A stretch of DNA of 64,000 nucleotides, taken from assembly GCA_948144175.1 (NCBI GenBank), contig CANXME010000233.1, forward strand, positions 248,001-312,000, in the 5' to 3' direction. The first letter of the stretch is position 1; every line of letters starts with the position of its first letter. The translations under genes were made by a program, and so were the position numbers. Source of the stretch: Closterium sp. NIES-65. Lineage: Eukaryota > Streptophyta > Zygnematophyceae > Desmidiales > Closteriaceae. The notes below the pieces were generated by a model that ran no database searches, was not told the DNA's origin, and saw only the letters and a program-made list of their open reading frames with translations. Positions 2,286 through 62,638 of this stretch are shown in pieces.

Positions 2286-2333
2286 GTGGTGGGCCCTACG
2301 AACAGTTCCCACAGGGGAACCTGCTCGATACCA
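2286..2333 (-). other. Primer-binding site and post-PBS stem-loop of element G
   Basis: On the minus strand the LTR is followed directly by TGGTATCGAGCAGG (2333-2320), a variant of the initiator-Met primer site used by plant Copia elements. It is followed by the hairpin GTTCCC-CTGT-GGGAAC (2320-2305) and then AGGGCCCACCAC (2297-2286). The same three-part module occurs in A, B and I. Confidence 0.8.
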
Positions 2334-2465
2334 TGTGAGAATAAGCGAACAGGAATGAATGAACTAGCAGTGAAATGAGTACAAGTAGGAAACCCTAGAA
2401 TTGTGTACCCCCTATAGGCTAACCCACTGTAGCCTACACAAGCAGAACATATATAATGTTTGACA
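2334..2465 (-). repeat. 5' LTR of element G (132 bp)
   Basis: On the minus strand it begins TGTCAAACATT and ends TTATTCTCACA, next to the primer site. It is clearly homologous to the 132-bp LTRs of element B and carries the shared segments TAGGCTACAGTGGGTTAGCC and TATAGGGGGTACACAATTC. Confidence 0.85.
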
Positions 2466-8000: not shown

Positions 8001-9697
8001 GGAGTGCAGTGAGGGCGGAGTGCAGTGAGGGCGGAGTGCAGCGAGGGCGGAGTGCAGCGAGGGCGGAGTGCAGCGAGGGCGGAGTGCAGCGAGGGCGGAG
8101 TGCAGCGAGGGCGGAGTGCAGCGAGGGCGGAGTGCAGCGAGGGCGGAGTGCAGCGAGGGCGGAGTGCAGCGAGGGCGGAGTGCAGCGAGGGCGGAGTGCA
8201 GCGAGGGCGGAGTGCAGCGAGGGCGGAGTGCAGCGAGGGCGGAGTGCAGCGAGGGCGGAGTGCAGCGAGGGCGGAGTGCAGCGAGGGCGGAGTGCAGCGA
8301 GGGCGGAGTGCAGCGAGGGCGGAGTGCAGCGAGGGCGGAGTGCAGCGAGGGCGGAGTGCAGCGAGGGCGGAGTGCAGCGAGGGCGGAGTGCAGCGAGGGC
8401 GGAGTGCAGCGAGGGCGGAGTGCAGCGAGGGCGGAGTGCAGCGAGGGCGGAGTGCAGCGAGGGCGGAGTGCAGCGAGGGCGGAGTGCAGCGAGGGCGGAG
8501 TGCAGCGAGGGCGGAGTGCAGCGAGGGCGGAGTGCAGCGAGGGCGGAGTGCAGCGAGGGCGGAGTGCAGCGAGGGCGGAGTGCAGCGAGGGCGGAGTGCA
8601 GCGAGGGCGGAGTGCAGCGAGGGCGGAGTGCAGCGAGGGCGGAGTGCAGCGAGGGCGGAGTGCAGCGAGGGCGGAGTGCAGCGAGGGCGGAGTGCAGCGA
8701 GGGCGGAGTGCAGCGAGGGCGGAGTGCAGCGAGGGCGGAGTGCAGCGAGGGCGGAGTGCAGCGAGGGCGGAGTGCAGCGAGGGCGGAGTGCAGCGAGGGC
8801 GGAGTGCAGCGAGGGCGGAGTGCAGCGAGGGCGGAGTGCAGCGAGGGCGGAGTGCAGCGAGGGCGGAGTGCAGCGAGGGCGGAGTGCAGCGAGGGCGGAG
8901 TGCAGCGAGGGCGGAGTGCAGCGAGGGCGGAGTGCAGCGAGGGCGGAGTGCAGCGAGGGCGGAGTGCAGCGAGGCGGGAGTGCAGCGAGGGGGGAGTGCA
9001 GTGAGGGTGGAGTGCAGTGAGGGCGCTGCGTGTGTTGGTGCTCTAACTTGTCTGCTTGCCTCAACTGTGGCTCAACTCCTGTGTGCGTGTGTGGATGGGT
9101 GTGGTGCGTGGCTGTGTGTGTGTGTGCATGCGTGCGTGTGTGTGTGTGCGTGTGGGTGCGTGTGGGTGTGTGTGGGTGTGTGTGGGTGCGTGTGGGTGGC
9201 GTGGGTGTGGGTATGGGGGTTGGGTTGGAGGTTGGGGTGGGGATGGGGTTGTTTGTGTGGTTGTGGGTGGGTGTGGGTGGGCGGAAATGTGTGCATGTGC
9301 ACGTGGCATGTGAGTGTCCACATGTGCGCATGCATGGCAGTGTTGGTGTCTCAACTTCCGGGGCCGGGTGACAGTGGCGTCGGTGAAGAACTTTCAGCTG
9401 ATAGAGGGCAATGCGGGGGGGGCGGTGGACGATGCGGACAAGCCGGTGCTGCTGCAGTTTGGCAAGATCGGCAAGGACGTCTTCACCATGGACTACCGCT
9501 ATCCGCTCTCCGCCTTCCAGGTACGCCCAAACCCTCTCCGCCTTCTCCGCCTTCCAGGTAACGGGTTTGCGCAAGGCTTTCGGATGAATGTGCTGAAACA
9601 TACCTGACCCTGCCTCCACATGCGCCACTGTCCCTTGTGCGTGCAGGCCTTTGCCATCTGTCTGAGCAGCTTCGACACCAAAGTAGCCTGCGAGTGA
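5025..9697 (+). CDS. TULP: F-box Tubby-like protein (plant TULP type), six exons
   Basis: Exons: 5025-5269, 5667-5882, 6179-6299, 6557-7882, 9341-9520 and 9647-9697. The total of 2139 nt is in frame at every junction and gives 712 residues. Residues 38-82 form an F-box ([14 protein letters not shown] then VCKAWREM), expected to bind SKP1 in an SCF ubiquitin ligase. A Tubby domain follows: [105 protein letters not shown], and the typical terminal [13 protein letters not shown]. Tubby domains bind membrane phosphoinositides. The protein is much longer than usual plant TULPs (about 360-450 aa) because exon 4 carries two Ser/Ala/Pro/Gly-rich insertions (about residues 215-332 and 361-620) on either side of one core strand. 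Introns are GT-AG except intron 3, which seems to be GC-AG. Neighbours are all mobile elements. Confidence 0.9.
6300..6556 (+). other. TULP intron 3, apparent GC-AG intron
   Basis: Reading frame and family alignment place the exon end after CCCAACGAG. The next bases are GCCAGT, not GT, and the acceptor CCCCCCAG ends at 6556. A GT two codons on (6304) would break the frame at every nearby acceptor. GC donors exist as a minority class in plants and algae. Confidence 0.55.
7915..9027 (+). repeat. 16-bp minisatellite in TULP intron 4 (about 69 copies)
   Basis: The unit GAGGGCGGAGTGCAGC repeats head to tail with almost no change. The first eight or so units and the last ones carry T in place of the final C, and single-base variants occur near 8973-9010. 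It begins about 30 bp after the intron 4 donor. Because 16 is not a multiple of 3 and the unit lacks stops, long spurious open frames appear in all frames. Confidence 0.95.
9078..9300 (+). repeat. GT-rich simple sequence in TULP intron 4
   Basis: Degenerate (GT)n and (GTGGGT)n sequence fills most of the space between the minisatellite and the exon 5 acceptor at 9340. Confidence 0.85.
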
Positions 9698-10040: not shown

Positions 10041-10548
10041 CTGGAAAAGCATGATGTGCCAGGCCAACTGTATGAGCCTAAGGTGTTTTGCAAACTGTTA
10101 GTCTGGTTGCAAGGATTAGGAACTAAGCAAAAGTCTCTCCAAACGCTTTTTGGAGGGTGCAAGTCTTTTGTTTGTGGCTCATATGCTGTAGTAAGACGAA
10201 CAATTTAGAAACATATTTCTAAATTTAATGATTGTGACAAGATTCAAAAAAGGGGAATGCAATAAGGAGGCATTCCTATCTTATCCTTCGGCAGGTCCAC
10301 AGACCTGCCACCTAGTCTCATTTCACTCATCTCAATTTGAGTTCCCGCCCGTCCCACCTCTACCATGCATAGACGCGTAGCTAGATTGCATCTTAGGGTA
10401 GCTTTGCATAACCTTGCTACATCAGTATTTCATGTGCCATGTAAATTGATGATGACCTATGACGATTGCATTGCAGACTCCTTTCAGAGTCTTGTCACAA
10501 TGAATACACAAACCACCTACCAAACACCGCCTTTCTGTACACCACTCC
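10041..10548. repeat. F segment, copy 1 (508 bp)
   Basis: A 508-bp segment beginning CTGGAAAAGCATGATG and ending ACACCACTCC, present three times in the window (also 16363-16870 and 22673-23180), each time just left of where a DIRS element starts or would start. It holds a perfect 8-bp tetraloop hairpin (GGCAGGTC-CACA-GACCTGCC at 10290-10309). Short open frames in it resemble nothing known. Its origin is unknown. Confidence 0.85.
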
Positions 10549-10605
10549 ATTGAGAAAGCTTGCTTTCTTGTCCTTATAATTTGGCATCGTTCTCATTGCA
10601 ACTGG
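10549..10605. repeat. Split direct repeat B2, copy E1
   Basis: This 57-bp repeat begins ATTGAGAAAGCTTGCTTTCT and ends CATTGCAACTGG, and recurs exactly at 10906-10962. Its start is palindromic (AGAAAGC-TT-GCTTTCT), a plausible recombinase core site at the element terminus. Confidence 0.8.
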
Positions 10606-10724
10606 CTTATTACAACATATGCATCGTTCGTAAACACATGCTAGTACATGCAAATATTACTAGCTATGGAGTCGTCCGTCCAAGCAGCTGTGGTCTTGTA
10701 GTTGGTCCGGGGTGGGTGGTGGGG

Positions 10725-10762
10725 ATGTTGATTGAGCCGTTGGAAAACGAGAAACGTGGGTG
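10725..10762. repeat. Split direct repeat A2, copy E1
   Basis: This 38-bp repeat begins ATGTTGATTGAGCCGTTGG and ends GAGAAACGTGGGTG. It is identical to the terminal repeat A1 at 16321-16358. Confidence 0.8.
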
Positions 10763-10905
10763 GAGGGAATGAACTCCAACCCACGGTTTTTGTAGTTGGA
10801 GAAGGGCGTTTAGCGCGCTTCGACGCTGCCAAATATTCGGTACAGTCAGCTTCGCTTTCACAATACACAATTTTGAAAAACATCAATGTGTTTAAAAATT
10901 ATAAT

Positions 10906-10962
10906 ATTGAGAAAGCTTGCTTTCTTGTCCTTATAATTTGGCATCGTTCTCATTGCAACTGG
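10906..10962. repeat. Split direct repeat B1, copy E1
   Basis: A second exact copy of the 57-bp B repeat. It overlaps the end of the recombinase frame, whose stop lies near 10950. Confidence 0.8.
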
Positions 10963-12021
10963 GGCCTCTGAGACATGGCCAGTGGTGGCTTGCGGTTGCG
11001 TAAGAGTGCCTCTGCGTGCTGTTCTGGGGGCAGCGCGTATGTCGGGTCCTGTAGGTCGCGGGATGCCTTGATAAGATGTCCGACGTATGGTGTGACGTAC
11101 ATCTCTTTGGCGGTGTCACTTCGCCACCTGCCCATCCTTTTGAAGATTCTGTCCGGCACGCCGATGTTGGCGGCTACGGTTGCCGCGCCCTTTCGGAAGG
11201 AGTGCGTGCCGAGCTGCTGCTCCCCAAGTCCTACTTTGGCGAATGCTTCTTTACACCAGTTTCGGATCGTTGTGTACGAGGGTGGCTTGGCCTGGCCCTT
11301 GTTGGCTGAAGCGTGGCTGAAAACGCGAATCAACGACCCCTCGGAATGAGGGCCATAGCCAGCGAGTTGGAGGAAGCGTTGGGTTGCAGCGCACGGGGCA
11401 ACAAGGGTCCGTCGTTGCGGCGATGGGAATCCAGGTTCCACGACCAGCCTGGTCCGTTTTTGAGTGTGGGATGAGGATCCACATGACTGCATCGTCGAAT
11501 TGGATGTCTTGCCACTGGATGGCAACGAGGTCGGAGTATCGCAAAAATCCGGAGTACATGAGGATAGGGATCAACCCCTTCTGAAATTCAGCGGGATTGT
11601 CCGACTGCAAGTAGTTCGCGGACATGTCCCGAACTTGTTGGATTGATACGGGCTCCTTCAAACGACTAGGGCGAGGGCAGTGTCGTTTCGCGTAGTCCCG
11701 CACTTGGGTGGTAAACGGTCCGACAGTCGGGCATTTGCTTCCAGTCATGCGATGGGCGAAGCTGACTGCCGAGCACGTGAGCTGCACTACAGACAAGGTT
11801 GCTTTGCGTTGGATTGCATGCACCAAGTATAGCGCGAGGGTCATGTCGGATGCGGGAAGAAATGGAAGATCCACCTTTGTGCAGAAGGCCCGAAACTTGG
11901 CCCAGTACGGTTCGTATGTACGGATTGTCGAATTCGCTCGCGATTGTGTGAGCATGTTGATGAGTTGGTTGTGTAGCTTTGGGAGCGGATCTGGACACAA
12001 GGCGCGTACATTCTCAATTAG
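10950..12021 (-). pseudogene. Tyrosine recombinase of E1, frameshifted
   Basis: Same gene as the intact recombinase of E2 (17272-18321). It reads normally through the catalytic Arg segment (GFLRYSDLVAIQWQD) and the PHSKTDQAG stretch. One extra T in the run GGGTTGC near 11384 (E2 has GGGTGC) then shifts the frame. The distal part with HSFRKGAAT and GRWRSDTAKEMY is present but in another frame. With this single base the enzyme would lose its His, second Arg, Trp and Tyr, so E1 cannot integrate by itself. Confidence 0.85.
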
Positions 12022-14111
12022 TCAAAAACCACCCGAAGTGCGATGATTGGGCTGTGTGGTAATCCAGTGCCTGAAAAAGCAGCGGAATGTGTTCCAGCTG
12101 CCAGGCATTGGCTGCCGTGTGTCAAGGGAATGTGCGCGTGGATGTACGGTGCCCAGTTGCGTGGGGAAGGTTGTAAAAGTGGCCACCAGTTTGCACCCGG
12201 CCAGTGTGGGATGATCAATGTGAGCGATGCACGGGTGCGCTGTGCGTGATGGAGGACGGCCGGAACTAAATGGGGCGGGGGGAACGCAAAGCTATTTTCT
12301 GATGTCCATGCGAGCGAGAATGCATCGACTGCGGTGGCTTGTGGATGAGGAATTTTCGTGCAGAAGCGTGGCAGCTGGGAGTTGCGGGAGTTTGCAAAGA
12401 GGTCGATGGAATGGGGACCCCAACGCCGTTCTAAGATGCGGAACCACGGCGTCTTCAACGAGTAGTCGTCATGATCGACTGCTTTTGAGAGCTCATCGGC
12501 GTGTGAGTTTAGCTCCCGTGGGATCCATTCGATGATTAGATGCGTGCCGTGCTCCATGCATAGTCGAATGATGTCTTGGCAGGCCGTGGTAAGGTCGGGG
12601 CTGCGCGAGCCACCTTTGCGAAGGATGAAGAAGACGCCCTGATTGTCCACCCGCACAAGAACATGTTTGTGCGTGATCTTGCTGGAGTATGTTTGGAGTG
12701 CCCAAAGCACACCTTCGATCTCCCTCCGTGTGCTGGACGTCGCTCGCAGCGGCTCTGGCATTGTTGCGCTAGCTTCTTCGAGGCCGCCAGGAAATGTGGT
12801 CAAAGTGGCGCCCCAACTGTGAGCGCTAGCATCCACATGGATGACAGCGTCGTAGCTGTTTCGAACGTGAAACGGTGCACCGTTGAACCTATCAAACTCT
12901 TCGAGCCAGAAGTTTAGCTCCTCAGCCGCGTTTGGGGGGATGATCACGCTGCTTTTCCATGAAGGTGCGTCATTGATCACTTGTAGCATGGCGTGGCTGA
13001 AAGCACGAGCTGTTGCGCCCAGCGCGACGCCCATTGACGCGAGCATGCCTGTGATTCTGGCCACTTGGCGGACTGAGACGGGTCGACATGCCTTGCTTGC
13101 GCTCAACAGGTTCCGAATGGTTGCATGTAGTGAGGCTCGTCGTTCGGGACCGATGGTAAATCGGCCCGTGGCCGTGTCTAGCTCCACACCCAAGAATCGA
13201 AGGTGTTGCGATGGTGACAGCTGTGATTTCTTCGCATTTATCACCAAACCTGCTGCTTTAAGGTCGAGTATTACACGGTGGCAAGTAGCCTGCGCGTGAG
13301 CTTTTGACTGGCAAAGGAATAAGATGTCGTCCACGTATGGTACTACTCGGATGCCTTGCTCCCGCCAGCGACGGGCTAGCTGCTTGATGAGTTGCGTGAA
13401 GATGAATGGGGCTGTCGCAAGACCGAACGGCAATGAACGAAAGGAGTAAGTGCGCCCATCGAATCCAAAACCGAGAAACTTCCAGCATGAAGGATGGATA
13501 TCGATGTGATGGTACCCGGATTTGAGATCAATAGAAAACATCCAATCCCCAGCGCGTGCCACGTCTGCCACACGGCTGAGTCCTTCGTACTTGAATTTTG
13601 GGACGATGAGGTTTGTGTTGACTTTTCTCAGGTCGAGGATGAGCCTGCATTTTTCTTTCTGCTCGACCACGTTAAGTGGGCTTATGCACGTAAGCTCGCT
13701 TGCGGCTGTCTCGACTGCAGCTCCGGTCTCTGTGAGTTCTTGGATGGCAGTACGTGTGAACGACGCATGCGCGTATGCACCAGCGTGGTTACGCTCCCGA
13801 AAGGCCTGTGGTGGGCCGTGGCTCCATGGAAGCCAGTAACCGTTGGCGATGATGGATAGGACGAGGCTGCAAGGGCACCATGAGCTCCACCACGCAAAGG
13901 TCGAGCGAAGCCGACCGCACATCCGTGTGACGGTTTTGTCCGTGACGGCGAATTCGTACGGGCCATCGTCGCGAGGCACCTCGTATTGTTGTGCTCCTGT
14001 ATGTACGGCAAGGAAATGAACGCGACCAATCAGGTTGCACGCCTTAATTAGTTCATGCGTGTGACATATACATGCATGCGCGAAAAATGAACCGTCAACA
14101 GTGAGGACCAT
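12018..14111 (-). CDS. Reverse transcriptase-RNase H of DIRS element E1
   Basis: A 697-residue frame starting at ATG 14111. Residues about 150-320 hold the RT: CRLILDLRKVN, FSIDLKSGYHHIDIHP (Asp195), FRSLPFGLATAPFIFT and PYVDDILFL (YVDD at 259-262). Residues about 422-550 hold an RNase H with Asp427 (IHVDASAHSWG), Glu464, Asp489 (VRVDNQG) and Asp539. The C-terminal WGPHSIDLFANSRNSQLPRF block is typical of DIRS-group RT-RNase H proteins. No methyltransferase domain follows, unlike DIRS1 itself. The frame ends at TAA 12020-12018, overlapping the recombinase frame by a few bases. Confidence 0.9.
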   Translation of the reverse strand: MVLTVDGSFFAHACICHTHELIKACNLIGRVHFLAVHTGAQQYEVPRDDGPYEFAVTDKTVTRMCGRLRSTFAWWSSWCPCSLVLSIIANGYWLPWSHGPPQAFRERNHAGAYAHASFTRTAIQELTETGAAVETAASELTCISPLNVVEQKEKCRLILDLRKVNTNLIVPKFKYEGLSRVADVARAGDWMFSIDLKSGYHHIDIHPSCWKFLGFGFDGRTYSFRSLPFGLATAPFIFTQLIKQLARRWREQGIRVVPYVDDILFLCQSKAHAQATCHRVILDLKAAGLVINAKKSQLSPSQHLRFLGVELDTATGRFTIGPERRASLHATIRNLLSASKACRPVSVRQVARITGMLASMGVALGATARAFSHAMLQVINDAPSWKSSVIIPPNAAEELNFWLEEFDRFNGAPFHVRNSYDAVIHVDASAHSWGATLTTFPGGLEEASATMPEPLRATSSTRREIEGVLWALQTYSSKITHKHVLVRVDNQGVFFILRKGGSRSPDLTTACQDIIRLCMEHGTHLIIEWIPRELNSHADELSKAVDHDDYSLKTPWFRILERRWGPHSIDLFANSRNSQLPRFCTKIPHPQATAVDAFSLAWTSENSFAFPPPHLVPAVLHHAQRTRASLTLIIPHWPGANWWPLLQPSPRNWAPYIHAHIPLTHGSQCLAAGTHSAAFSGTGLPHSPIIALRVVFD

Positions 14112-14261
14112 ACGGACGGTTTGTCGTCATTCCATATAGGGCGTCCGATCGCACCTTGGCAAACTCTTTCTCATACTCTCTCCTTTTCCCTCCCCTCGTT
14201 TTTTTTTTTTTTTTTTTCTGGAGGATTGATGCTTGGGACCATGATCATGCTTCCCTCGTGT

Positions 14262-14366
<105 letters not shown>

Positions 14367-14754
14367 CTTTCTCTCTCCCTCTCTTTTTGGATGTGTTTCC
14401 ATTGTTGTTTGAGCATTTGCATGCTTCGCTTGTCATGAGCTCGTGTCTTTTCGCGCGTGCCTTTACTTGGGCTAGGCGACATCGCTATGCCCTACTCCCC
14501 CCCCCTTGCTCCTTCTCACCCTTTTTGGGCTTCCAACGGTTGAACCAGGGCTGCTCATCCTTGCCATGCATGGTGGCGGTTTGAGTGAGGAGCGTACGTA
14601 CTCTCTTTTTCTCCCTCTCCCCTTCTCCTCCTTTTTTTTTTTTTTTTTTAATCCTTGACAAACAAGAGGGGCCTTTAATAAAATCCCTATCTCTCATGGT
14701 CATACATTGTCATGCCTACTAGCATGTTTCTCATCCCATCAATTGGGGCATACG

Positions 14755-14893
14755 GGGGACCGAGAGGCATTCTTCCTCTTCCCCAAAGCTAGACCTACGG
14801 CCATACTTTATTACCCTATCCTAGGGGACCGAGAGGCATTCTTCCTCTTCCCCAAAGCTAGGCCTATGGCCAACTTCTACCACCCTATCCTAG
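14755..14893. repeat. Tandem 69-bp repeat, copy E1
   Basis: Two adjacent units of about 69 bp (14755-14823 and 14824-14893), each beginning GGGGACCGAGAGGCATTC and ending CACCCTATCCTA or ACCCTATCCTA. They lie in the non-coding stretch just after the gag stop. Confidence 0.85.
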
Positions 14894-14998
14894 GGCTGGC
14901 CATGGCCACCGCAAGCCCTACTAGGCTGCCCACGGTCTAAGCACTCAAAAGTGCACCGTGCATCGCGCCTAGAGGCGCGCTTCACCATAGCCCGAACC

Positions 14999-16207
14999 TT
15001 ACACAACCGGTGCGGGTCCTTGGCCCCCATGCCCATTCCGAGGGCAGGCATTGGCGACGTGGCCTGGCTGTCCGCAGCGGAAACACGAACCACGAAAGCC
15101 TTGGAAGTTGCCCGAGGTTGGAGGGCCACGTTTTGGGGCGAACGCCTTGGCGCCGTGGTTTCCACCACGGTGGGAGCGAGCGTGAGCGCCCGCCGCTCGG
15201 TCCATGGCAGCCACGTCCGCGACGGCTTGCTTGAACGGCCGCGAGGTGAGAAGGCTTTTCTGCAGGTACATCTTGTAGCGCTTGGCAACGCGGTCGTCGG
15301 ATGCGTCTTCGACTTGAAACATGTCGAAGCGCGCGGAAATGTCGTCGAGGGCGGCGACGACCATTTCGAGTCCGCCCGCCAAGTCGCCGTGCTGCAGCTT
15401 GTGCTCTGCGTGTTTCAGGTAGGCCCGCATGTCCTCCAGAATCTCCGCTTTCGCCCGCACGTGCTCGTCGTTGAACGTCGCCGCCGACCAAGTGGTGTTA
15501 GTAGTAGAGGGGAGGGGGGGAAGATGCTCCATGGAATGAAAATTTGCGGTATGGACCGGAGCCTCACCATCATCGTCGTCGGAGCCGTCGGTGTCGTTGT
15601 CGGCCGCTGGCGCAGGTGGGATGCTGGCTGGTGCTTCCTTGTTGTGCCGGTTCGCCGTTGTTCCTCGCGCTCCTTTTTCTTTTTTTGCGTTTTCCTTTTT
15701 AGCAGATGCAGACGCCGCGGGTTGTGCAATTTCCGTAGCTGTAACGCTGGCGGGTTGTTGCTGTAACAGGGACAGAAGCGCAGCGACCTGGTCCGGAGTC
15801 AACGCGTTGGTCAACGCCGGGGTCGTCGCGTCAGAAGAAGTCGATGTTCGGCGCCTCTGGCGCTGACGCGACGGTCCAGCCACAGGCGCCGGCGTGTGCT
15901 CCGCGTCAGGCGCGTGTGGCGCCCCAGGTGCTGCAGGTGCCGCCGTCGCCACTTGCGCCACACGCGCCTCAGGCGCCACAGGCGCCACAGGCGCCACAGG
16001 GGCCGAGGGGTGCTGCTGCTGGGGCGGGCTCGAGTTTTTGTTGACCTCGAGCCCGCCCAACAGCACGTCCACGGCAGTTGGGGCGGGCGATCCTTCCTCT
16101 GCCCGCCGCTTGTTACGGCGATCGCCCGTCATTTCTCGGGCGTTACGGTCGGAGTCGGAAACCGGCGCAGACGAATTGACGCGGTTAAGTGCCGGCGTAG
16201 ACGCCAT
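14999..16207 (-). CDS. Gag-like protein of DIRS element E1
   Basis: A 402-residue frame from ATG 16207. It begins with a Ser/Arg-rich segment (REMTGDRRNKRRAEEG). A low-complexity Ala/Pro/Val region follows, then an acidic stretch (DNDTDGSDDDDGE), a predicted helical part (HVRAKAEILEDMRAYLKHAE), and a C-terminal CCHC zinc knuckle CFRCGQPGHVANAC. The knuckle and first position in the element identify it as the nucleic-acid-binding Gag. It is separated from the RT frame by about 890 bp of simple sequence. E2 carries an equal copy. Confidence 0.85.
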   Translation of the reverse strand: MASTPALNRVNSSAPVSDSDRNAREMTGDRRNKRRAEEGSPAPTAVDVLLGGLEVNKNSSPPQQQHPSAPVAPVAPVAPEARVAQVATAAPAAPGAPHAPDAEHTPAPVAGPSRQRQRRRTSTSSDATTPALTNALTPDQVAALLSLLQQQPASVTATEIAQPAASASAKKENAKKEKGARGTTANRHNKEAPASIPPAPAADNDTDGSDDDDGEAPVHTANFHSMEHLPPLPSTTNTTWSAATFNDEHVRAKAEILEDMRAYLKHAEHKLQHGDLAGGLEMVVAALDDISARFDMFQVEDASDDRVAKRYKMYLQKSLLTSRPFKQAVADVAAMDRAAGAHARSHRGGNHGAKAFAPKRGPPTSGNFQGFRGSCFRCGQPGHVANACPRNGHGGQGPAPVV

Positions 16208-16320
16208 TGTAGATCGATTGTGGTTGAAAATGTCTTGCAGAAGTGTTGAGGGTGACTCGCCTCTGGGAAGGGTGCGAGTTCTAGCCAGCTTGGACGGGGA
16301 AAAGAACTACTCGAACGGAA

Positions 16321-16358
16321 ATGTTGATTGAGCCGTTGGAAAACGAGAAACGTGGGTG
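16321..16358. repeat. Split direct repeat A1, right terminus of E1
   Basis: The 38-bp A repeat at the 5' (minus-strand) end of E1. It is followed at 16359 by CCAA and then the second F segment. Confidence 0.8.
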
Positions 16359-16362
16359 CCAA

Positions 16363-16870
16363 CTGGAAAAGCATGATGTGCCAGGCCAACTGTATGAGCC
16401 TAAGGTGTTTTGCAAACTGTTAGTCTGGTTGCAAGGATTAGGAACTAAGCAAAAGTCTCTCCAAACGCTTTTTGGAGGGTGCAAGTCTTTTGTTTGTGGC
16501 TCATATGCTGTAGTAAGACGAACAATTTAGAAACATATTTCTAAATTTAATGATTGTGACAAGATTCAAAAAAGGGGAATGCAATAAGGAGGCATTCCTA
16601 TCTTATCCTTCGGCAGGTCCACAGACCTGCCACCTAGTCTCATTTCACTCATCTCAATTTGAGTTCCCGCCCGTCCCACCTCTACCATGCATAGACGCGT
16701 AGCTAGATTGCATCTTAGGGTAGCTTTGCATAACCTTGCTACATCAGTATTTCATGTGCCATGTAAATTGATGATGACCTATGACGATTGCATTGCAGAC
16801 TCCTTTCAGAGTCTTGTCACAATGAATACACAAACCACCTACCAAACACCGCCTTTCTGTACACCACTCC
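16363..16870. repeat. F segment, copy 2 (508 bp)
   Basis: Identical by eye to the first F segment. It lies between the right terminus of E1 and the left terminus of E2. Confidence 0.9.
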
Positions 16871-17284
16871 ATTGAGAAAGCTTGCTTTCTTGTCCTTATA
16901 ATTTGGCATCGTTCTCATTGCAACTGGCTTATTACAACATATGCATCGTTCGTAAACACATGCTAGTACATGCAAATATTACTAGCTATGGAGTCGTCCG
17001 TCCAAGCAGCTGTGGTCTTGTAGTTGGTCCGGGGTGGGTGGTGGGGATGTTGATTGAGCCGTTGGAAAACGAGAAACGTGGGTGGAGGGAATGAACTCCA
17101 ACCCACGGTTTTTGTAGTTGGAGAAGGGCGTTTAGCGCGCTTCGACGCTGCCAAATATTCGGTACAGTCAGCTTCGCTTTCACAATACACAATTTTGAAA
17201 AACATCAATGTGTTTAAAAATTATAATATTGAGAAAGCTTGCTTTCTTGTCCTTATAATTTGGCATCGTTCTCATTGCAACTGG
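16871..17284. repeat. B2-A2-B1 terminal repeat block of E2
   Basis: It contains B2 (16871-16927), A2 (17047-17084) and B1 (17228-17284), with the same spacing as in E1. The spacers are AT-rich and non-coding. Confidence 0.8.
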
Positions 17285-18321
17285 GGCCTCTGAGACATGG
17301 CCAGTGGTGGCTTGCGGTTGCGTAAGAGTGCCTCTGCGTGCTGTTCTGGGGGCAGCGCGTATGTCGGGTCCTGTAGGTCGCGGGATGCCTTGATAAGATG
17401 TCCGACGTATGGTGTGACGTACATCTCTTTGGCGGTGTCACTTCGCCACCTGCCCATCCTTTTGAAGATTCTGTCCGGCACGCCGATGTTGGCGGCTACG
17501 GTTGCCGCGCCCTTTCGGAAGGAGTGCGTGCCGAGCTGCTGCTCCCCAAGTCCTACTTTGGCGAATGCTTCTTTACACCAGTTTCGGATCGTTGTGTACG
17601 AGGGTGGCTTGGCCTGGCCCTTGTTGGCTGAAGCGTGGCTGAAAACGCGAATCAACGACCCCTCGGAATGAGGGCCATAGCCAGCGAGTTGGAGGAAGCG
17701 TTGGGTGCAGCGCACGGGGCAACAAGGGTCCGTCGTTGCGGCGATGGGAATCCAGGTTCCACGACCAGCCTGGTCCGTTTTTGAGTGTGGGATGAGGATC
17801 CACATGACTGCATCGTCGAATTGGATGTCTTGCCACTGGATGGCAACGAGGTCGGAGTATCGCAAAAATCCGGAGTACATGAGGATAGGGATCAACCCCT
17901 TCTGAAATTCAGCGGGATTGTCCGACTGCAAGTAGTTCGCGGACATGTCCCGAACTTGTTGGATTGATACGGGCTCCTTCAAACGACTAGGGCGAGGGCA
18001 GTGTCGTTTCGCGTAGTCCCGCACTTGGGTGGTAAACGGTCCGACAGTCGGGCATTTGCTTCCAGTCATGCGATGGGCGAAGCTGACTGCCGAGCACGTG
18101 AGCTGCACTACAGACAAGGTTGCTTTGCGTTGGATTGCATGCACCAAGTATAGCGCGAGGGTCATGTCGGATGCGGGAAGAAATGGAAGATCCACCTTTG
18201 TGCAGAAGGCCCGAAACTTGGCCCAGTACGGTTCGTATGTACGGATTGTCGAATTCGCTCGCGATTGTGTGAGCATGTTGATGAGTTGGTTGTGTAGCTT
18301 TGGGAGCGGATCTGGACACAA
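17272..18321 (-). CDS. Tyrosine recombinase of DIRS element E2
   Basis: About 349 residues. The N-terminal half has the SAM-like core-binding fold expected of phage-integrase-type enzymes (SRANSTIRTYEPYWAKFRAFC). The catalytic half shows Arg154 (GFLRYSDL), His266 and Arg269 (HSFRKG), Trp292 and Tyr301 (GRWRSDTAKEMYV), with Lys181 as a possible catalytic Lys. It should join the circular element DNA to the target. The frame opens after TGA 18345-18343, overlaps the RT stop by a few bases, and has no in-frame ATG before residue 16 of this reading (the first codon used here is TTG). It may be made by termination-reinitiation or frameshifting. Confidence 0.9.
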   Translation of the reverse strand: MCPDPLPKLHNQLINMLTQSRANSTIRTYEPYWAKFRAFCTKVDLPFLPASDMTLALYLVHAIQRKATLSVVQLTCSAVSFAHRMTGSKCPTVGPFTTQVRDYAKRHCPRPSRLKEPVSIQQVRDMSANYLQSDNPAEFQKGLIPILMYSGFLRYSDLVAIQWQDIQFDDAVMWILIPHSKTDQAGRGTWIPIAATTDPCCPVRCTQRFLQLAGYGPHSEGSLIRVFSHASANKGQAKPPSYTTIRNWCKEAFAKVGLGEQQLGTHSFRKGAATVAANIGVPDRIFKRMGRWRSDTAKEMYVTPYVGHLIKASRDLQDPTYALPPEQHAEALLRNRKPPLAMSQRPQLQ

Positions 18322-18338
18322 GGCGCGTACATTCTCAA

Positions 18339-20432
18339 TTAGTCAAAAACCACCCGAAGTGCGATGATTGGGCTGTGTGGTAATCCAGTGCCTGAAAAAG
18401 CAGCGGAATGTGTTCCAGCTGCCAGGCATTGGCTGCCGTGTGTCAAGGGAATGTGCGCGTGGATGTACGGTGCCCAGTTGCGTGGGGAAGGTTGTAAAAG
18501 TGGCCACCAGTTTGCACCCGGCCAGTGTGGGATGATCAATGTGAGCGATGCACGGGTGCGCTGTGCGTGATGGAGGACGGCCGGAACTAAATGGGGCGGG
18601 GGGAACGCAAAGCTATTTTCTGATGTCCATGCGAGCGAGAATGCATCGACTGCGGTGGCTTGTGGATGAGGAATTTTCGTGCAGAAGCGTGGCAGCTGGG
18701 AGTTGCGGGAGTTTGCAAAGAGGTCGATGGAATGGGGACCCCAACGCCGTTCTAAGATGCGGAACCACGGCGTCTTCAACGAGTAGTCGTCATGATCGAC
18801 TGCTTTTGAGAGCTCATCGGCGTGTGAGTTTAGCTCCCGTGGGATCCATTCGATGATTAGATGCGTGCCGTGCTCCATGCATAGTCGAATGATGTCTTGG
18901 CAGGCCGTGGTAAGGTCGGGGCTGCGCGAGCCACCTTTGCGAAGGATGAAGAAGACGCCCTGATTGTCCACCCGCACAAGAACATGTTTGTGCGTGATCT
19001 TGCTGGAGTATGTTTGGAGTGCCCAAAGCACACCTTCGATCTCCCTCCGTGTGCTGGACGTCGCTCGCAGCGGCTCTGGCATTGTTGCGCTAGCTTCTTC
19101 GAGGCCGCCAGGAAATGTGGTCAAAGTGGCGCCCCAACTGTGAGCGCTAGCATCCACATGGATGACAGCGTCGTAGCTGTTTCGAACGTGAAACGGTGCA
19201 CCGTTGAACCTATCAAACTCTTCGAGCCAGAAGTTTAGCTCCTCAGCCGCGTTTGGGGGGATGATCACGCTGCTTTTCCATGAAGGTGCGTCATTGATCA
19301 CTTGTAGCATGGCGTGGCTGAAAGCACGAGCTGTTGCGCCCAGCGCGACGCCCATTGACGCGAGCATGCCTGTGATTCTGGCCACTTGGCGGACTGAGAC
19401 AGGTCGACATGCCTTGCTTGCGCTCAACAGGTTCCGAATGGTTGCATGTAGTGAGGCTCGTCGTTCGGGACCGATGGTAAATCGGCCCGTGGCCGTGTCT
19501 AGCTCCACACCCAAGAATCGAAGGTGTTGCGATGGTGACAGCTGTGATTTCTTCGCATTTATCACCAAACCTGCTGCTTTAAGGTCGAGTATTACACGGT
19601 GGCAAGTAGCCTGCGCGTGAGCTTTTGACTGGCAAAGGAATAAGATGTCGTCCACGTATGGTACTACTCGGATGCCTTGCTCCCGCCAGCGACGGGCTAG
19701 CTGCTTGATGAGTTGCGTGAAGATGAATGGGGCTGTCGCAAGACCGAACGGCAATGAACGAAAGGAGTAAGTGCGCCCATCGAATCCAAAACCGAGAAAC
19801 TTCCAGCATGAAGGATGGATATCGATGTGATGGTACCCGGATTTGAGATCAATAGAAAACATCCAATCCCCAGCGCGTGCCACGTCTGCCACACGGCTGA
19901 GTCCTTCGTACTTGAATTTTGGGACGATGAGGTTTGTGTTGACTTTTCTCAGGTCGAGGATGAGCCTGCATTTTTCTTTCTGCTCGACCACGTTAAGTGG
20001 GCTTATGCACGTAAGCTCGCTTGCGGCTGTCTCGACTGCAGCTCCGGTCTCTGTGAGTTCTTGGATGGCAGTACGTGTGAACGACGCATGCGCGTATGCA
20101 CCAGCGTGGTTACGCTCCCGAAAGGCCTGTGGTGGGCCGTGGCTCCATGGAAGCCAGTAACCGTTGGCGATGATGGATAGGACGAGGCTGCAAGGGCACC
20201 ATGAGCTCCACCACGCAAAGGTCGAGCGAAGCCGACCGCACATCCGTGTGACGGTTTTGTCCGTGACGGCGAATTCGTACGGGCCATCGTCGCGAGGCAC
20301 CTCGTATTGTTGTGCTCCTGTATGTACGGCAAGGAAATGAACGCGACCAATCAGGTTGCACGCCTTAATTAGTTCATGCGTGTGACATATACATGCATGC
20401 GCGAAAAATGAACCGTCAACAGTGAGGACCAT
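18339..20432 (-). CDS. Reverse transcriptase-RNase H of DIRS element E2
   Basis: 697 residues, the same protein as in E1: RT with FSIDLKSGYHHIDIHP and YVDD at 259-262, RNase H with Asp427, Glu464, Asp489 and Asp539, and the DIRS-type C-terminal block with SIDLFANSRNSQLPRF. It starts at ATG 20432. The one G-to-A change relative to E1 near 19401 appears silent. It lies between gag and the recombinase, as in other DIRS-group elements. Confidence 0.9.
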   Translation of the reverse strand: MVLTVDGSFFAHACICHTHELIKACNLIGRVHFLAVHTGAQQYEVPRDDGPYEFAVTDKTVTRMCGRLRSTFAWWSSWCPCSLVLSIIANGYWLPWSHGPPQAFRERNHAGAYAHASFTRTAIQELTETGAAVETAASELTCISPLNVVEQKEKCRLILDLRKVNTNLIVPKFKYEGLSRVADVARAGDWMFSIDLKSGYHHIDIHPSCWKFLGFGFDGRTYSFRSLPFGLATAPFIFTQLIKQLARRWREQGIRVVPYVDDILFLCQSKAHAQATCHRVILDLKAAGLVINAKKSQLSPSQHLRFLGVELDTATGRFTIGPERRASLHATIRNLLSASKACRPVSVRQVARITGMLASMGVALGATARAFSHAMLQVINDAPSWKSSVIIPPNAAEELNFWLEEFDRFNGAPFHVRNSYDAVIHVDASAHSWGATLTTFPGGLEEASATMPEPLRATSSTRREIEGVLWALQTYSSKITHKHVLVRVDNQGVFFILRKGGSRSPDLTTACQDIIRLCMEHGTHLIIEWIPRELNSHADELSKAVDHDDYSLKTPWFRILERRWGPHSIDLFANSRNSQLPRFCTKIPHPQATAVDAFSLAWTSENSFAFPPPHLVPAVLHHAQRTRASLTLIIPHWPGANWWPLLQPSPRNWAPYIHAHIPLTHGSQCLAAGTHSAAFSGTGLPHSPIIALRVVFD

Positions 20433-20582
20433 ACGGACGGTTTGTCGTCATTCCATATAGGGCGTCCGATCGCACCTTGGCAAACTCTTTCTCATACTCT
20501 CTCCTTTTCCCTCCCCTCGTTTTTTTTTTTTTTTTTTTCTGGAGGATTGATGCTTGGGACCATGATCATGCTTCCCTCGTGT

Positions 20583-20583
<1 letters not shown>

Positions 20584-20672
<89 letters not shown>
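20584..20672 (+). repeat. (CT)n microsatellite, copy E2
   Basis: About 44 CT units in the gag-RT spacer, 12 bp shorter than the E1 tract. Confidence 0.95.
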
Positions 20673-20675
<3 letters not shown>

Positions 20676-21064
20676 CTTTCTCTCTCCCTCTCTTTTTGGA
20701 TGTGTTTCCATTGTTGTTTGAGCATTTGCATGCTTCGCTTGTCATGAGCTCGTGTCTTTTCGCGCGTGCCTTTACTTGGGCTAGGCGACATCGCTATGCC
20801 CTACTCCCCCCCCCTTGCTCCTTCTCACCCTTTTTGGGCTTCCAACGGTTGAACCAGGGCTGCTCATCCTTGCCATGCATGGTGGCGGTTTGAGTGAGGA
20901 GCGTACGTACTCTCTTTTTCTCCCTCTCCCCTTCTCCTCCTTTTTTTTTTTTTTTTTTTAATCCTTGACAAACAAGAGGGGCCTTTAATAAAATCCCTAT
21001 CTCTCATGGTCATACATTGTCATGCCTACTAGCATGTTTCTCATCCCATCAATTGGGGCATACG

Positions 21065-21203
21065 GGGGACCGAGAGGCATTCTTCCTCTTCCCCAAAGCT
21101 AGACCTACGGCCATACTTTATTACCCTATCCTAGGGGACCGAGAGGCATTCTTCCTCTTCCCCAAAGCTAGGCCTATGGCCAACTTCTACCACCCTATCC
21201 TAG
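21065..21203. repeat. Tandem 69-bp repeat, copy E2
   Basis: Same two-unit repeat as at 14755-14893, in the spacer after the gag stop. Confidence 0.85.
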
Positions 21204-21308
21204 GGCTGGCCATGGCCACCGCAAGCCCTACTAGGCTGCCCACGGTCTAAGCACTCAAAAGTGCACCGTGCATCGCGCCTAGAGGCGCGCTTCACCATAG
21301 CCCGAACC

Positions 21309-22517
21309 TTACACAACCGGTGCGGGTCCTTGGCCCCCATGCCCATTCCGAGGGCAGGCATTGGCGACGTGGCCTGGCTGTCCGCAGCGGAAACACGAAC
21401 CACGAAAGCCTTGGAAGTTGCCCGAGGTTGGAGGGCCACGTTTTGGGGCGAACGCCTTGGCGCCGTGGTTTCCACCACGGTGGGAGCGAGCGTGAGCGCC
21501 CGCCGCTCGGTCCATGGCAGCCACGTCCGCGACAGCTTGCTTGAACGGCCGCGAGGTGAGAAGGCTTTTCTGCAGGTACATCTTGTAGCGCTTGGCAACG
21601 CGGTCGTCGGATGCGTCTTCGACTTGAAACATGTCGAAGCGCGCGGAAATGTCGTCGAGGGCGGCGACGACCATTTCGAGTCCGCCCGCCAAGTCGCCGT
21701 GCTGCAGCTTGTGCTCTGCGTGTTTCAGGTAGGCCCGCATGTCCTCCAGAATCTCCGCTTTCGCCCGCACGTGCTCGTCGTTGAACGTCGCCGCCGACCA
21801 AGTGGTGTTAGTAGTAGAGGGGAGGGGGGGAAGATGCTCCATGGAATGAAAATTTGCGGTATGGACCGGAGCCTCACCATCATCGTCGTCGGAGCCGTCG
21901 GTGTCGTTGTCGGCCGCTGGCGCAGGTGGGATGCTGGCTGGTGCTTCCTTGTTGTGCCGGTTCGCCGTTGTTCCTCGCGCTCCTTTTTCTTTTTTTGCGT
22001 TTTCCTTTTTAGCAGATGCAGACGCCGCGGGTTGTGCAATTTCCGTAGCTGTAACGCTGGCGGGTTGTTGCTGTAACAGGGACAGAAGCGCAGCGACCTG
22101 GTCCGGAGTCAACGCGTTGGTCAACGCCGGGGTCGTCGCGTCAGAAGAAGTCGATGTTCGGCGCCTCTGGCGCTGACGCGACGGTCCAGCCACAGGCGCC
22201 GGCGTGTGCTCCGCGTCAGGCGCGTGTGGCGCCCCAGGTGCTGCAGGTGCCGCCGTCGCCACTTGCGCCACACGCGCCTCAGGCGCCACAGGCGCCACAG
22301 GCGCCACAGGGGCCGAGGGGTGCTGCTGCTGGGGCGGGCTCGAGTTTTTGTTGACCTCGAGCCCGCCCAACAGCACGTCCACGGCAGTTGGGGCGGGCGA
22401 TCCTTCCTCTGCCCGCCGCTTGTTACGGCGATCGCCCGTCATTTCTCGGGCGTTACGGTCGGAGTCGGAAACCGGCGCAGACGAATTGACGCGGTTAAGT
22501 GCCGGCGTAGACGCCAT
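21309..22517 (-). CDS. Gag-like protein of DIRS element E2
   Basis: 402 residues from ATG 22517, matching the E1 protein: Ala/Pro-rich middle, acidic DNDTDGSDDDDGE segment and terminal CCHC knuckle CFRCGQPGHVANAC. The G-to-A change near 21534 lies in this frame but looks synonymous (Ala kept in KQAVADVAAMD). Confidence 0.85.
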   Translation of the reverse strand: MASTPALNRVNSSAPVSDSDRNAREMTGDRRNKRRAEEGSPAPTAVDVLLGGLEVNKNSSPPQQQHPSAPVAPVAPVAPEARVAQVATAAPAAPGAPHAPDAEHTPAPVAGPSRQRQRRRTSTSSDATTPALTNALTPDQVAALLSLLQQQPASVTATEIAQPAASASAKKENAKKEKGARGTTANRHNKEAPASIPPAPAADNDTDGSDDDDGEAPVHTANFHSMEHLPPLPSTTNTTWSAATFNDEHVRAKAEILEDMRAYLKHAEHKLQHGDLAGGLEMVVAALDDISARFDMFQVEDASDDRVAKRYKMYLQKSLLTSRPFKQAVADVAAMDRAAGAHARSHRGGNHGAKAFAPKRGPPTSGNFQGFRGSCFRCGQPGHVANACPRNGHGGQGPAPVV

Positions 22518-22630
22518 TGTAGATCGATTGTGGTTGAAAATGTCTTGCAGAAGTGTTGAGGGTGACTCGCCTCTGGGAAGGGTGCGAGTTCTAGCCAGCT
22601 TGGACGGGGAAAAGAACTACTCGAACGGAA

Positions 22631-22668
22631 ATGTTGATTGAGCCGTTGGAAAACGAGAAACGTGGGTG
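22631..22668. repeat. Split direct repeat A1, right terminus of E2
   Basis: The 38-bp A repeat at the right end of E2, followed by CCAA and the third F segment. Confidence 0.8.
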
Positions 22669-22672
22669 CCAA

Positions 22673-23180
22673 CTGGAAAAGCATGATGTGCCAGGCCAAC
22701 TGTATGAGCCTAAGGTGTTTTGCAAACTGTTAGTCTGGTTGCAAGGATTAGGAACTAAGCAAAAGTCTCTCCAAACGCTTTTTGGAGGGTGCAAGTCTTT
22801 TGTTTGTGGCTCATATGCTGTAGTAAGACGAACAATTTAGAAACATATTTCTAAATTTAATGATTGTGACAAGATTCAAAAAAGGGGAATGCAATAAGGA
22901 GGCATTCCTATCTTATCCTTCGGCAGGTCCACAGACCTGCCACCTAGTCTCATTTCACTCATCTCAATTTGAGTTCCCGCCCGTCCCACCTCTACCATGC
23001 ATAGACGCGTAGCTAGATTGCATCTTAGGGTAGCTTTGCATAACCTTGCTACATCAGTATTTCATGTGCCATGTAAATTGATGATGACCTATGACGATTG
23101 CATTGCAGACTCCTTTCAGAGTCTTGTCACAATGAATACACAAACCACCTACCAAACACCGCCTTTCTGTACACCACTCC
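22673..23180. repeat. F segment, copy 3 (508 bp)
   Basis: Third F copy. It ends with the same ACACCACTCC, but is followed by TTGTGTAATGTAGC instead of a DIRS B2 repeat, so it marks the right end of the F-E-F-E-F array. Confidence 0.9.
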
Positions 23181-27140: not shown

Positions 27141-27265
27141 TGTCAAACTCATATGCTATAGTCTGTGTAGGCTGTAGTGGGGTAGACAATATCGGGTACA
27201 ACACTTCAAGGTTTCCTACTTGTACCCAACTATGTGCTAGTTCATTTCATTCCTCAATTCTCACA
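27141..27265 (+). repeat. 5' LTR of element A (125 bp)
   Basis: Begins TGTCAAACTCATATGC and ends AATTCTCACA. Identical to the 3' LTR at 48984-49108 except for three bases. Confidence 0.92.
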
Positions 27266-27311
27266 TGGTATAGAGCAGGTTCCCTCGTGGGAACTTCCTA
27301 GGGCCCACCAC
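27266..27311 (+). other. Primer-binding site and post-PBS stem-loop of A
   Basis: TGGTATAGAGCAGG (27266-27279), stem-loop GTTCCC-TCGT-GGGAAC (27279-27294), then AGGGCCCACCAC (27300-27311). Confidence 0.85.
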
Positions 27312-27344: not shown

Positions 27345-28260
27345 GAGTCGCTCCTGACCGAGTCGCGCCCAGTGTGCCGCCCTCCCCTTAGCGACCCGTC
27401 GCGCCGCCCTCAGCGGCCCTCCCCCTCTCTCACGGCCCCTCGCGACCCCATCGCCGCTCTCCTAGCGGCCCGTCGCGCCGCCCTCAGCGGCCCCTCCTCC
27501 ACGGCCCCGTCGCCGCCCTATCGCGGCCCCGTCGCCGCCCTATCGCGGCCCCGTCGCCGCCCTCTCACGGCCCCGTCGCCGCCCTATCGCGGCCCCGTCG
27601 CCGCCCTCTTGCGGCCCCGTCGCCGCCCTATCGCGGCCCCGTCGCCGCCCTCTTGCGGCCCCGTCGCCGCCCTCTCGAGGCCCCGTTGCCGCCCTATCGC
27701 GGCCCCGTCGCCTCCCTCTCGCGGCCCCGTCACCGCCGTTCGCAGCCCCGTCGCCGCTCGTAGCGGCCCTGCAACCGCCCCTCACGGCCTCGTCGCCGCC
27801 CTCTCGCAGCCACGTCGCCGCCCTCTAGCGCCCCCCCGTCGCCGCCCTCTTGCGGCCTCGTCGCCGCCCTCTAGCGGCCCTCGTCGCCGCCCTCGTGCGA
27901 CCTCGTCGCCGCCCCTCGGCGGCCCTGCTACCGCTTCTAATCGGCCCCGACGCCGCCTCCTACGCGGCCTCGACGCCGCCTCTACCGAGCCGCCCAGCAG
28001 CGGAGCCGCCGAGCCACCCAGCAGTAGAGCCGCCGAGCCGCCCAGCAGCCGAGCCGCCCGACAGCCGAGCCGCCGAGCCGCCCGACCGCCGAGCCGCCCA
28101 GCAGCCGAGCCGCCCAGCAGCCGAGCCGCCTAGCCGCCGAGCCGCCCGACAGCCGAGCCGCCCAGCAGCCGAGTCGCCGAGCCGCCCGACCGCCGAGCCG
28201 CCCAGCAGCCGAGCCGCTGAGCCGCTACCAGTCCTACCGACGCGCCCCGACCCAACTTAC
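27345..28260 (+). repeat. GC-rich tandem-repeat leader of element A
   Basis: First part: repeats of GGCCCCGTCGCCGCCCTATC and close variants (about 27400-27960). Second part: repeats of GAGCCGCCCAGCAGCC and variants (about 27980-28230). Frames are open by composition (Pro/Arg/Ala-rich), not in frame with gag, and look non-coding. Confidence 0.8.
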
Positions 28261-28469: not shown

Positions 28470-28601
28470 TGTCAAACATTATATATGTTGTGTTAGTTTA
28501 GGCTACAGTGGGTTAGCCTATAGGGGGTACACAATTCTAGGGTTAGGTACTTGTACTCATTTCACTGCTAGTTCATTCATTCCTGTTCAGTGATTCCAAC
28601 A
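28470..28601 (+). repeat. 5' LTR of element B (132 bp)
   Basis: Begins TGTCAAACATTATATATG and ends GTGATTCCAACA. Same sequence at 43211-43342. Confidence 0.93.
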
Positions 28602-28652
28602 TGGTATAGAGCAGGTCCTTCCTAGGACCGAAATTTTCTAAGGGCCCACCAC
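28602..28652 (+). other. Primer-binding site and post-PBS stem-loop of B
   Basis: TGGTATAGAGCAGG (28602-28615), stem-loop GGTCCT-TCCT-AGGACC (28614-28629), then AGGGCCCACCAC (28641-28652). Relative to A, G and I the stem bases differ but pairing is kept. Confidence 0.85.
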
Positions 28653-43210: not shown

Positions 43211-43342
43211 TGTCAAACATTATATATGTTGTGTTAGTTTAGGCTACAGTGGGTTAGCCTATAGGGGGTACACAATTCTAGGGTTAGGTACTTGTACTCA
43301 TTTCACTGCTAGTTCATTCATTCCTGTTCAGTGATTCCAACA
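43211..43342 (+). repeat. 3' LTR of element B (132 bp)
   Basis: Identical to 28470-28601, followed by the target copy CAGCA. Confidence 0.93.
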
Positions 43343-48983: not shown

Positions 48984-49108
48984 TGTCAAACTCATATGCT
49001 ATAGTCTGTGTAGGCTGTAGTGGGGTAGACAATATGGGGTACAACACTTCTAGGTTTCCTACTTGTACCCAACTTTGTGCTAGTTCATTTCATTCCTCAA
49101 TTCTCACA
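48984..49108 (+). repeat. 3' LTR of element A (125 bp)
   Basis: Pair of 27141-27265, followed by GACAA. Confidence 0.92.
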
Positions 49109-54597: not shown

Positions 54598-54610
54598 GGC
54601 TCTCATACCA
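54598..54610 (-). other. Primer-binding site of element D
   Basis: TGGTATGAGAGCC directly after the LTR on the minus strand, initiator-Met type. Confidence 0.75.
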
Positions 54611-55459: not shown

Positions 55460-55592
55460 GGTCAGAACATTATAGCTTATGCTATTGTGTAGGCTATAGT
55501 GGGGTATCCCATAGGGGGTACAACCCAACTAGGGTTTCATATTTGTACTCGCTTCATTCATAGTTCACCTCATTCTTGTTCTAATTTTCTCA
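55460..55592 (+). repeat. 5' LTR of element I (133 bp)
   Basis: Contains CAGAACATTATAGCTTATGC and CCCATAGGGGGTACAACCC, and ends ATTTTCTCA before the primer site. Confidence 0.9.
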
Positions 55593-55640
55593 TGGTATCG
55601 AGCAGGTTCCCCCTTGGGAACTGTGCTTAGGGCCCACCAC
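55593..55640 (+). other. Primer-binding site and post-PBS stem-loop of I
   Basis: TGGTATCGAGCAGG (55593-55606), stem-loop GTTCCC-CCTT-GGGAAC (55606-55621), then AGGGCCCACCAC (55629-55640). Confidence 0.85.
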
Positions 55641-62505: not shown

Positions 62506-62638
62506 TGTCAGAACATTATAGCTTATGCTATTGTGTAGGCTATAGTGGGGTATCCCATAGGGGGTACAACCCAACTAGGGTTTCATATTTGTACTCGCTT
62601 CATTCATAGTTCACCTCATTCTCGTTCTAATTTTCTGA
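62506..62638 (+). repeat. 3' LTR of element I (133 bp)
   Basis: Begins TGTCAGAACATTATAGC and ends ATTTTCTGA, preceded by the family polypurine sequence CTATGGGGGTG and followed by the target copy GAAGC. Confidence 0.92.

Follow-up and report, generated by a model that had tools for sequence, protein, structure and literature searches.

In four retroelements (A, B, G and I), the ~45 nt that follow the 5' LTR probably serve as a multi-part docking site for the host's initiator tRNA-Met, with a covarying hairpin between its parts; judging from sequence, we give this reading a probability of about 0.7. The elements lie in the window, i.e. the whole stretch of 64,000 nucleotides of Closterium sp. 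NIES-65 DNA that was analysed. We infer a function of the two-part site in docking of the primer tRNA because the LTRs end exactly before TGGTAT and a downstream box matches tRNA-Met positions 23-33. The features are located as follows.

27141..27265, + strand: 5' LTR of element A (3' LTR at 48984-49108; LTR-LTR match 97.6%; flanks GACGA/GACAA)
27266..27279, + strand: primer site of A, TGGTATAGAGCAGG, adjoining the LTR; complement of the tRNA-Met 3' end minus one base at 7/8 and one at 13
27279..27294, + strand: hairpin of A, GTTCCC-TCGT-GGGAAC
27301..27311, + strand: tRNA box of A, GGGCCCACCAC, exactly complementary to tRNA-Met positions 23-33
28470..28601, + strand: 5' LTR of element B (3' LTR at 43211-43342; LTRs identical; target duplication CAGCA on both sides)
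28602..28615, + strand: primer site of B, TGGTATAGAGCAGG
28614..28629, + strand: hairpin of B, GGTCCT-TCCT-AGGACC
28642..28652, + strand: tRNA box of B, GGGCCCACCAC
2334..2465, - strand: 5' LTR of element G, resembling the LTRs of B
2320..2333, - strand: primer site of G, TGGTATCGAGCAGG
2305..2320, - strand: hairpin of G, GTTCCC-CTGT-GGGAAC
2286..2296, - strand: tRNA box of G, GGGCCCACCAC
55460..55592, + strand: 5' LTR of element I (3' LTR at about 62506-62638; match 99.2%; target duplication GAAGC on both sides)
55593..55606, + strand: primer site of I, TGGTATCGAGCAGG
55606..55621, + strand: hairpin of I, GTTCCC-CCTT-GGGAAC
55630..55640, + strand: tRNA box of I, GGGCCCACCAC
27300-27311 (A), 28641-28652 (B), 55629-55640 (I) and 2297-2286 on the minus strand (G): AGGGCCCACCAC

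Element B is nested within A, element I has single-base changes at two of its LTR ends, and G runs off the start of the window with a single LTR inside it. In A, B, G and I (for G, with one LTR in the window), LTR similarity stops immediately 5' of TGGTAT. Ty1/copia features were found in B and I, where gag_pre-integrs, rve, SH3_retrovirus and RVT_2 scored above cut-off (8 of the 43 listed frames were scanned) and the integrase lies 5' of the RVT_2-type reverse transcriptase; short target duplications of the kind found in Ty1/copia elements surround the LTRs of B, I and A. The copia identity of other families was examined in one case, L163 (the element of locus L146), in which gag_pre-integrs and SH3_retrovirus were above cut-off and rve below it, all in separate frames; RVT_2 was absent from the three frames scanned. 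The leader of A continues 3' of the box into a long, degenerate, GC-rich repeat whose units are of 11 and 8 bases (window 27380-28260), followed by the nested B.

The hairpins, loops and boxes of all four elements lie where the first-pass annotation had placed them, with the loops TCGT (A), TCCT (B), CTGT (G) and CCTT (I). The overlap of the stem with the end of the primer site described there also held, its register being corrected: the stem runs from primer-site base 14 in A, G and I and from base 13 in B. In the primer-site register, the shared pairs 14-18 hold two double changes between the classes, U-A/C-G at pair 16 and C-G/U-A at pair 18, in agreement with the paired changes previously reported between A/G/I and B. 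Only 58 of 63,984 window positions carry a perfect 6-bp stem with a 4-base loop, so that a stem-loop at the primer-site end in 4/4 elements is not due to chance, a count in which A, G and I have one stem sequence in common. The four leaders, when their first 51-56 nt were folded on their own, barely beat shuffled sequences (z -0.80, -0.54, -1.28 and -1.67). In G and I, pairing is possible between the primer site and the linker 3' of the hairpin; a general stem masking the primer site was rejected since the linker did not track the A/C change at primer-site base 7 (by eye, in the listed copies).

The same layout recurs throughout the genome sampled (874 Mb, 2,400 contigs). Exact TGGTATAGAGCAGG was found at 5,943 places (1 for the backwards pattern), TGGTATCGAGCAGG at 9,334 (backwards 0), and the primer site with the box, searched as TGGTATNNAGC followed after 18-48 bases by GGGCCCACCAC, at 10,503 (backwards 0). 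A Watson-Crick stem of 5 bp or more is formed in 126 of 132 distinct copies, which were found via the primer site alone and picked in the order of the list, and 118 contain exact GGGCCCACC. With G-U allowed, the stem is intact over 6 bp in 54 of 57 copies of the GTTCCC class and in 26 of 27 of the GGTCCT class. Sites differ between copies at 24% in the loop and 3% in each arm of the former class, and at 19% in the loop, 0% in the 5' arm and 24% in the 3' arm of the latter, the last value arising because 5 of the 27 copies have a five-base TCGCT loop which shifts the fixed columns. In the primer-site register, pair 16 is TA in 104 of 131 rows, CG in 26 and other in 1, and pair 18 is CG in 100, TA in 26 and other in 5 (two of them T-G).

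More distant families share the layout and differ in the stem. They were collected by stem-free searches which excluded the common classes and of which each had a backwards control of 0: the pattern TGGTATN{1,3}GAGCNNGVN{15,45}GGGCCCACC matched 1,304 genome places and its NNH version 2,240. The stems include TAGGTCG/CGACCTA, TAGGTC/GACCTA, AGGTCC/GGACCT, GCTAGGA/TCCTAGC and CGGCA/TGCCG, and further AGGCT/AGCCT, AAACCT/AGGTTT, GTTCCAA/TTGGAAC and CCTAGGT/ACCTAGG. Among the matches listed, at least 5 Watson-Crick pairs are formed in 76/100 (first search) and 79/100 (NNH), and some of the listed rows without 5 pairs are GTTCCC-class copies carrying one uncompensated change. Pooling of listed and fetched copies gave 321 rows, 199 of them distinct, which fell into 22 clusters at 75%. 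Of these clusters, 12 form a stem of 5 bp or more, versus a shuffle mean of 1.29 (maximum 5 in 1000 shuffles), one of the 12 (GAGCA/TGCTC) forming it from the primer site itself; the corresponding values are 7 versus 0.32 (maximum 3) for at least 6 bp and 4 versus 0.07 (maximum 1) for at least 7 bp. The 10 clusters without a 5-bp stem comprise 14 of the 321 rows. Coarser clustering with dinucleotide shuffles gave a weaker result, 4/8 clusters versus 0.64 (maximum 4), with a summed stem length of 38 versus 24.3 +/- 2.7 (maximum 34). When the two halves were swapped between the 22 clusters, the complementarity sum fell from 98 for own halves to 80.7 +/- 4.2, and 2 of 20,000 permutations reached 98; in the ten largest clusters, own halves gave 57 and swapped halves 46.0 +/- 3.1 (12 of 20,000 permutations). 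The hairpin is conserved by pairing while the stem sequence changes. Selection on RNA pairing, proposed from the window, is supported by the stems of the 126 copies, by the excess over shuffles in the clusters and by this swap test.

The box leads to the tRNA. When GTGGTGGGCCCATAACCCAC was searched with up to 2 mismatches, 32 genome places were obtained, 28 of them exact (backwards pattern 4), and all 12 loci fetched were identified by ARAGORN as tRNA-Met(CAT), which we take to be the plant-type initiator tRNA. Most of the 12 read ATCAGAGTGGCGCAGCGGAAGC-GTGGTGGGCCC-ATAACCCAC-AGGTCCGAGG..., and some deviate slightly. In reverse complement, GGGCCCACCAC is identical to positions 23-33 (linear count) of this host initiator-type tRNA-Met, a stretch that ends at the first anticodon base; the match holds in 12/12 tRNA-Met(CAT) genes, which were found with a pattern containing positions 23-33. 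For a given 11-mer and one 75-nt tRNA, a chance match is expected at ~65/4^11 (~1.5e-5), before the choice of tRNA and box edges. The box matches at 9 or more of 11 bases in 63/64 copies, and its eleven columns are conserved at 0.84-1.00, helped by this 9/11 condition; bases -6, -5, -1 and +11 outside the box are conserved at 0.81-0.95 without a tRNA match (63 copies). Compared with the sampled tRNA genes, A, B, G and I each lack two bases in the primer site, the first at 7/8 and the second at 13. Among 20 loci selected from the 1,304-place search to represent other families, the box continues through the anticodon (AT or TAT before GGGCCC) in 8, and the primer sites of L146 and L147 are exact tRNA-Met complements over 17 and 18 nt, respectively. 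A D-arm complement (positions 12-22) of 10-11 nt stands behind the box in 4 of the 20 (L150, L151, L153 and L154) and is also present in L121, L126 and L129, loci with an altered box core (p 0.001-0.002 for each match versus shuffles); L158 and L159 have a 7-nt D-arm match (p 0.027 and 0.020), and the match is absent in A, B, G and I.

Several features of the families were noted around these sites. The subfamily of L106, L107, L121, L126 and L129 combines the altered box core (GGCCCTACTAC) with an exact 11-nt D-arm complement, GCTTCCGCTGC, right behind it. Depending on the family, TGGTAT and GAGC are separated by 1, 2 or 3 bases between constant flanks, where the tRNA complement has CA. In L154, L162, L014 and L107, the stretch 5' of TGGTAT reads TGGTCTAGTGGTTGRGATTCTGACA, which resembles the A box of a tRNA gene and is followed in L014 by the B-box-like GGTTCAAATCC; some families may carry tRNA-like LTR ends or adjoin tRNA-derived repeats.

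According to the model that we propose, the 3' end of the tRNA would anneal to TGGTAT..GAGC..AGG at the edge of the LTR, the expected start of minus-strand DNA, and the strand comprising the end of the D stem and the anticodon stem (tRNA positions 23-33) would pair with GGGCCCACCAC, located 21-26 nt downstream in A, B, G and I. The two tRNA duplexes would be antiparallel and in the same order with the hairpin between them, and the T-arm side of the tRNA would be left as a loop opposite the element hairpin. The hairpin might serve as a spacer, a stacking platform or the resting state of the site, and the arrangement may help primer selection or initiation; a role near the initiation of reverse transcription fits the layout. 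Cofolding of unmodified RNAs, without tertiary structure, predicted for A and the tRNA a complex with both duplexes and a closed hairpin (net -15.8 kcal/mol). A static junction is disfavoured by 7/8 leaders, in which the minimum-energy complex opens the hairpin for more tRNA pairing (B -21.2, I -19.8, G -22.5, L146 -40.6, L147 -40.1, the CCTAGG family -16.9 and L143 -14.2 kcal/mol). As the hairpin is kept in 1/8 cofolded leaders, it may be a resting state which opens on priming, and this split of the predictions leaves both a static junction and a switch viable. In both models the tRNA-matching parts are fixed and the hairpin need only pair with itself.

In the switch reading, the hairpin would be a resting fold, and annealing would release its arms to pair with the T-arm and variable loop of the tRNA, which would turn most of the leader into a single interrupted duplex; the leader would stem from a copy that reverse transcriptase made of most of the initiator tRNA. 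This reading is possible, if on balance improbable. The opened hairpins of the 7/8 cofolded leaders, with about -40 kcal/mol for L146 and L147, speak for it, as does the resemblance of the spacer, in order, to the complement of the T-arm and variable loop (summed score 352 versus 243 +/- 11 for shuffles, maximum 279, in 22 clusters; 286, 274 and 273 for the reversed, complemented and sense control targets). However, palindromic stems reach nearly the same score with the sense strand, the spacer resemblance is lacking in GTTCCC, the most numerous class (p 0.34), and in several others, and the stems drift from the tRNA complement while their pairing persists. We find it somewhat doubtful that all of the leader (primer site, spacer, box and D-arm segment) represents a degenerate complement of almost the whole initiator tRNA-Met, which would have been captured by a reverse transcriptase reading through the full primer and kept as a two-state switch, with a family-specific hairpin when free and a long interrupted duplex when primed.

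The first-pass annotation had further suggested GGGCCC as a kissing or dimer site. Self-pairing of GGGCCC between two element RNAs, with the hairpin presenting it or aiding packaging, would account for a palindrome that is nearly invariant, but the non-palindromic ACC is conserved too and the whole 11-base box matches tRNA-Met, the match extending through the anticodon in the 8/20 other-family loci. Instead of a conserved palindrome in the hairpin loop, we found loops that vary (9 types in 57 copies) and GGGCCC outside the hairpin, and the predicted homodimer of A is weaker than its tRNA complex (-8.9 versus -15.8 kcal/mol). Dimerisation is thus not favoured as the function of the box, and we consider it very unlikely.

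An equally slim chance is left to priming at GGGCCCACCAC by the 5' half of the initiator tRNA-Met, cut in the anticodon loop, as in Osser-type elements, TGGTAT then being a relic. Half-tRNA-Met sites, sought within 50 bp behind the LTR, are reported for the plant copia lineages Osser, Bryco and part of Gymco-II (PMC6317226), and the end of the box-matching stretch at the first anticodon base would suit such a cut. Nevertheless, both LTRs end right before TGGTAT, whereas priming at the box should pull the spacer into the LTR, and L146 and L147 retain 17-18-nt exact sites for the tRNA 3' end. Compared by description with those lineages, the elements studied here are likewise copia-type with a site matching the initiator tRNA-Met near the anticodon; they differ in that the edge of the LTR favours the tRNA 3' end as the primer, with the anticodon-side match as a second site.

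Common descent without selection on pairing, by which close relatives merely inherit one hairpin, agrees with the single stem of nearly all sampled copies per class and with an LTR tree (84 copies, few columns) on which the two class labels need just three changes, two resting on single rows, of which one is a long branch, and which therefore implies few independent events among close relatives, but it is scarcely credible in view of 26 different perfect stems of 5 bp or more (some being shortened forms of others) at one place in other families, above shuffles and swaps.

The docking site favoured here resembles known systems. In Ty1, a primer site is combined with downstream boxes matching the T and D hairpins of the initiator tRNA-Met (PMC5454406, PMC4974528). 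The elements in Closterium are alike in having a short putative primer site for the tRNA 3' end followed by complements to other parts of the same tRNA (the 11-nt box and, in some families only, the D-arm segment), as do Box 0, Box 1 and Box 2.1 of Ty1 for the yeast initiator tRNA-Met. The Ty1 boxes are of 6-7 nt and match the T and D hairpins, while here one 11-nt box corresponds to the D-stem end and anticodon-stem strand; a covarying hairpin sits directly between primer site and box here, unlike in Ty1. The layout as a whole can be regarded as like Ty1 in principle, with the long anticodon-stem box and the covarying hairpin between two sites as a variation on its scheme. The bipartite initiator tRNA-Met site of Ty3 is also split, but its parts lie at opposite ends of the RNA genome (PMC4974528), whereas ours lie within ~45 nt. 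HIV-1 makes a second contact with its primer tRNA through the primer activation signal and through an A-rich loop that pairs with the anticodon (PMC11181671); the element type and tRNA are different there and, according to that paper, the A-rich loop is upstream of the primer site, in contrast to the downstream box here. Searches of one open-access library, covering titles and the beginnings of abstracts, listed no paper on a hairpin placed between the primer site and another tRNA-matching box, nor on a long anticodon-stem box of this kind. Scans of viral contigs for relatives gave none (7 pattern matches in one scan, none confirmed, and 0 in another).

Detailed knowledge of extended contacts between retroelement RNA and primer tRNA exists for yeast Ty1/Ty3 and for HIV. 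In the present genome, thousands of related elements carry a hairpin between two initiator-tRNA matches, which suggests a conserved primer docking site. Family variation within one genome, with more than 10,000 places having primer site and box, separates the fixed tRNA-matching parts from the hairpin that needs only pairing, and the primer-capture model therefore becomes testable by comparison. The annotation of copia primer sites may change as well, since 'half-tRNA' and 'whole-tRNA' sites could, in some lineages, belong together as the two halves of a single split site.

Other repeats were observed in the window. At 54610 (-) and 3237 (-), TGGTATGAGAGC, a look-alike of the primer site of other families, follows immediately after ..ACA/GCA; the 100 bases 3' of it contain neither the A/B/G/I hairpin nor GGGCCC at either place, and the stretches upstream of it are partly alike and are possibly LTRs. 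An array with a 16-base unit, in which 71 overlapping family copies are in register, starts at 7759. Near-identical units ~6.3 kb apart at 10041-22972 (-), with a zinc knuckle, RVT_1/RNase H-like matches and a weak Phage_integrase match below cut-off, are probably tandem DIRS-like tyrosine-recombinase retrotransposons.
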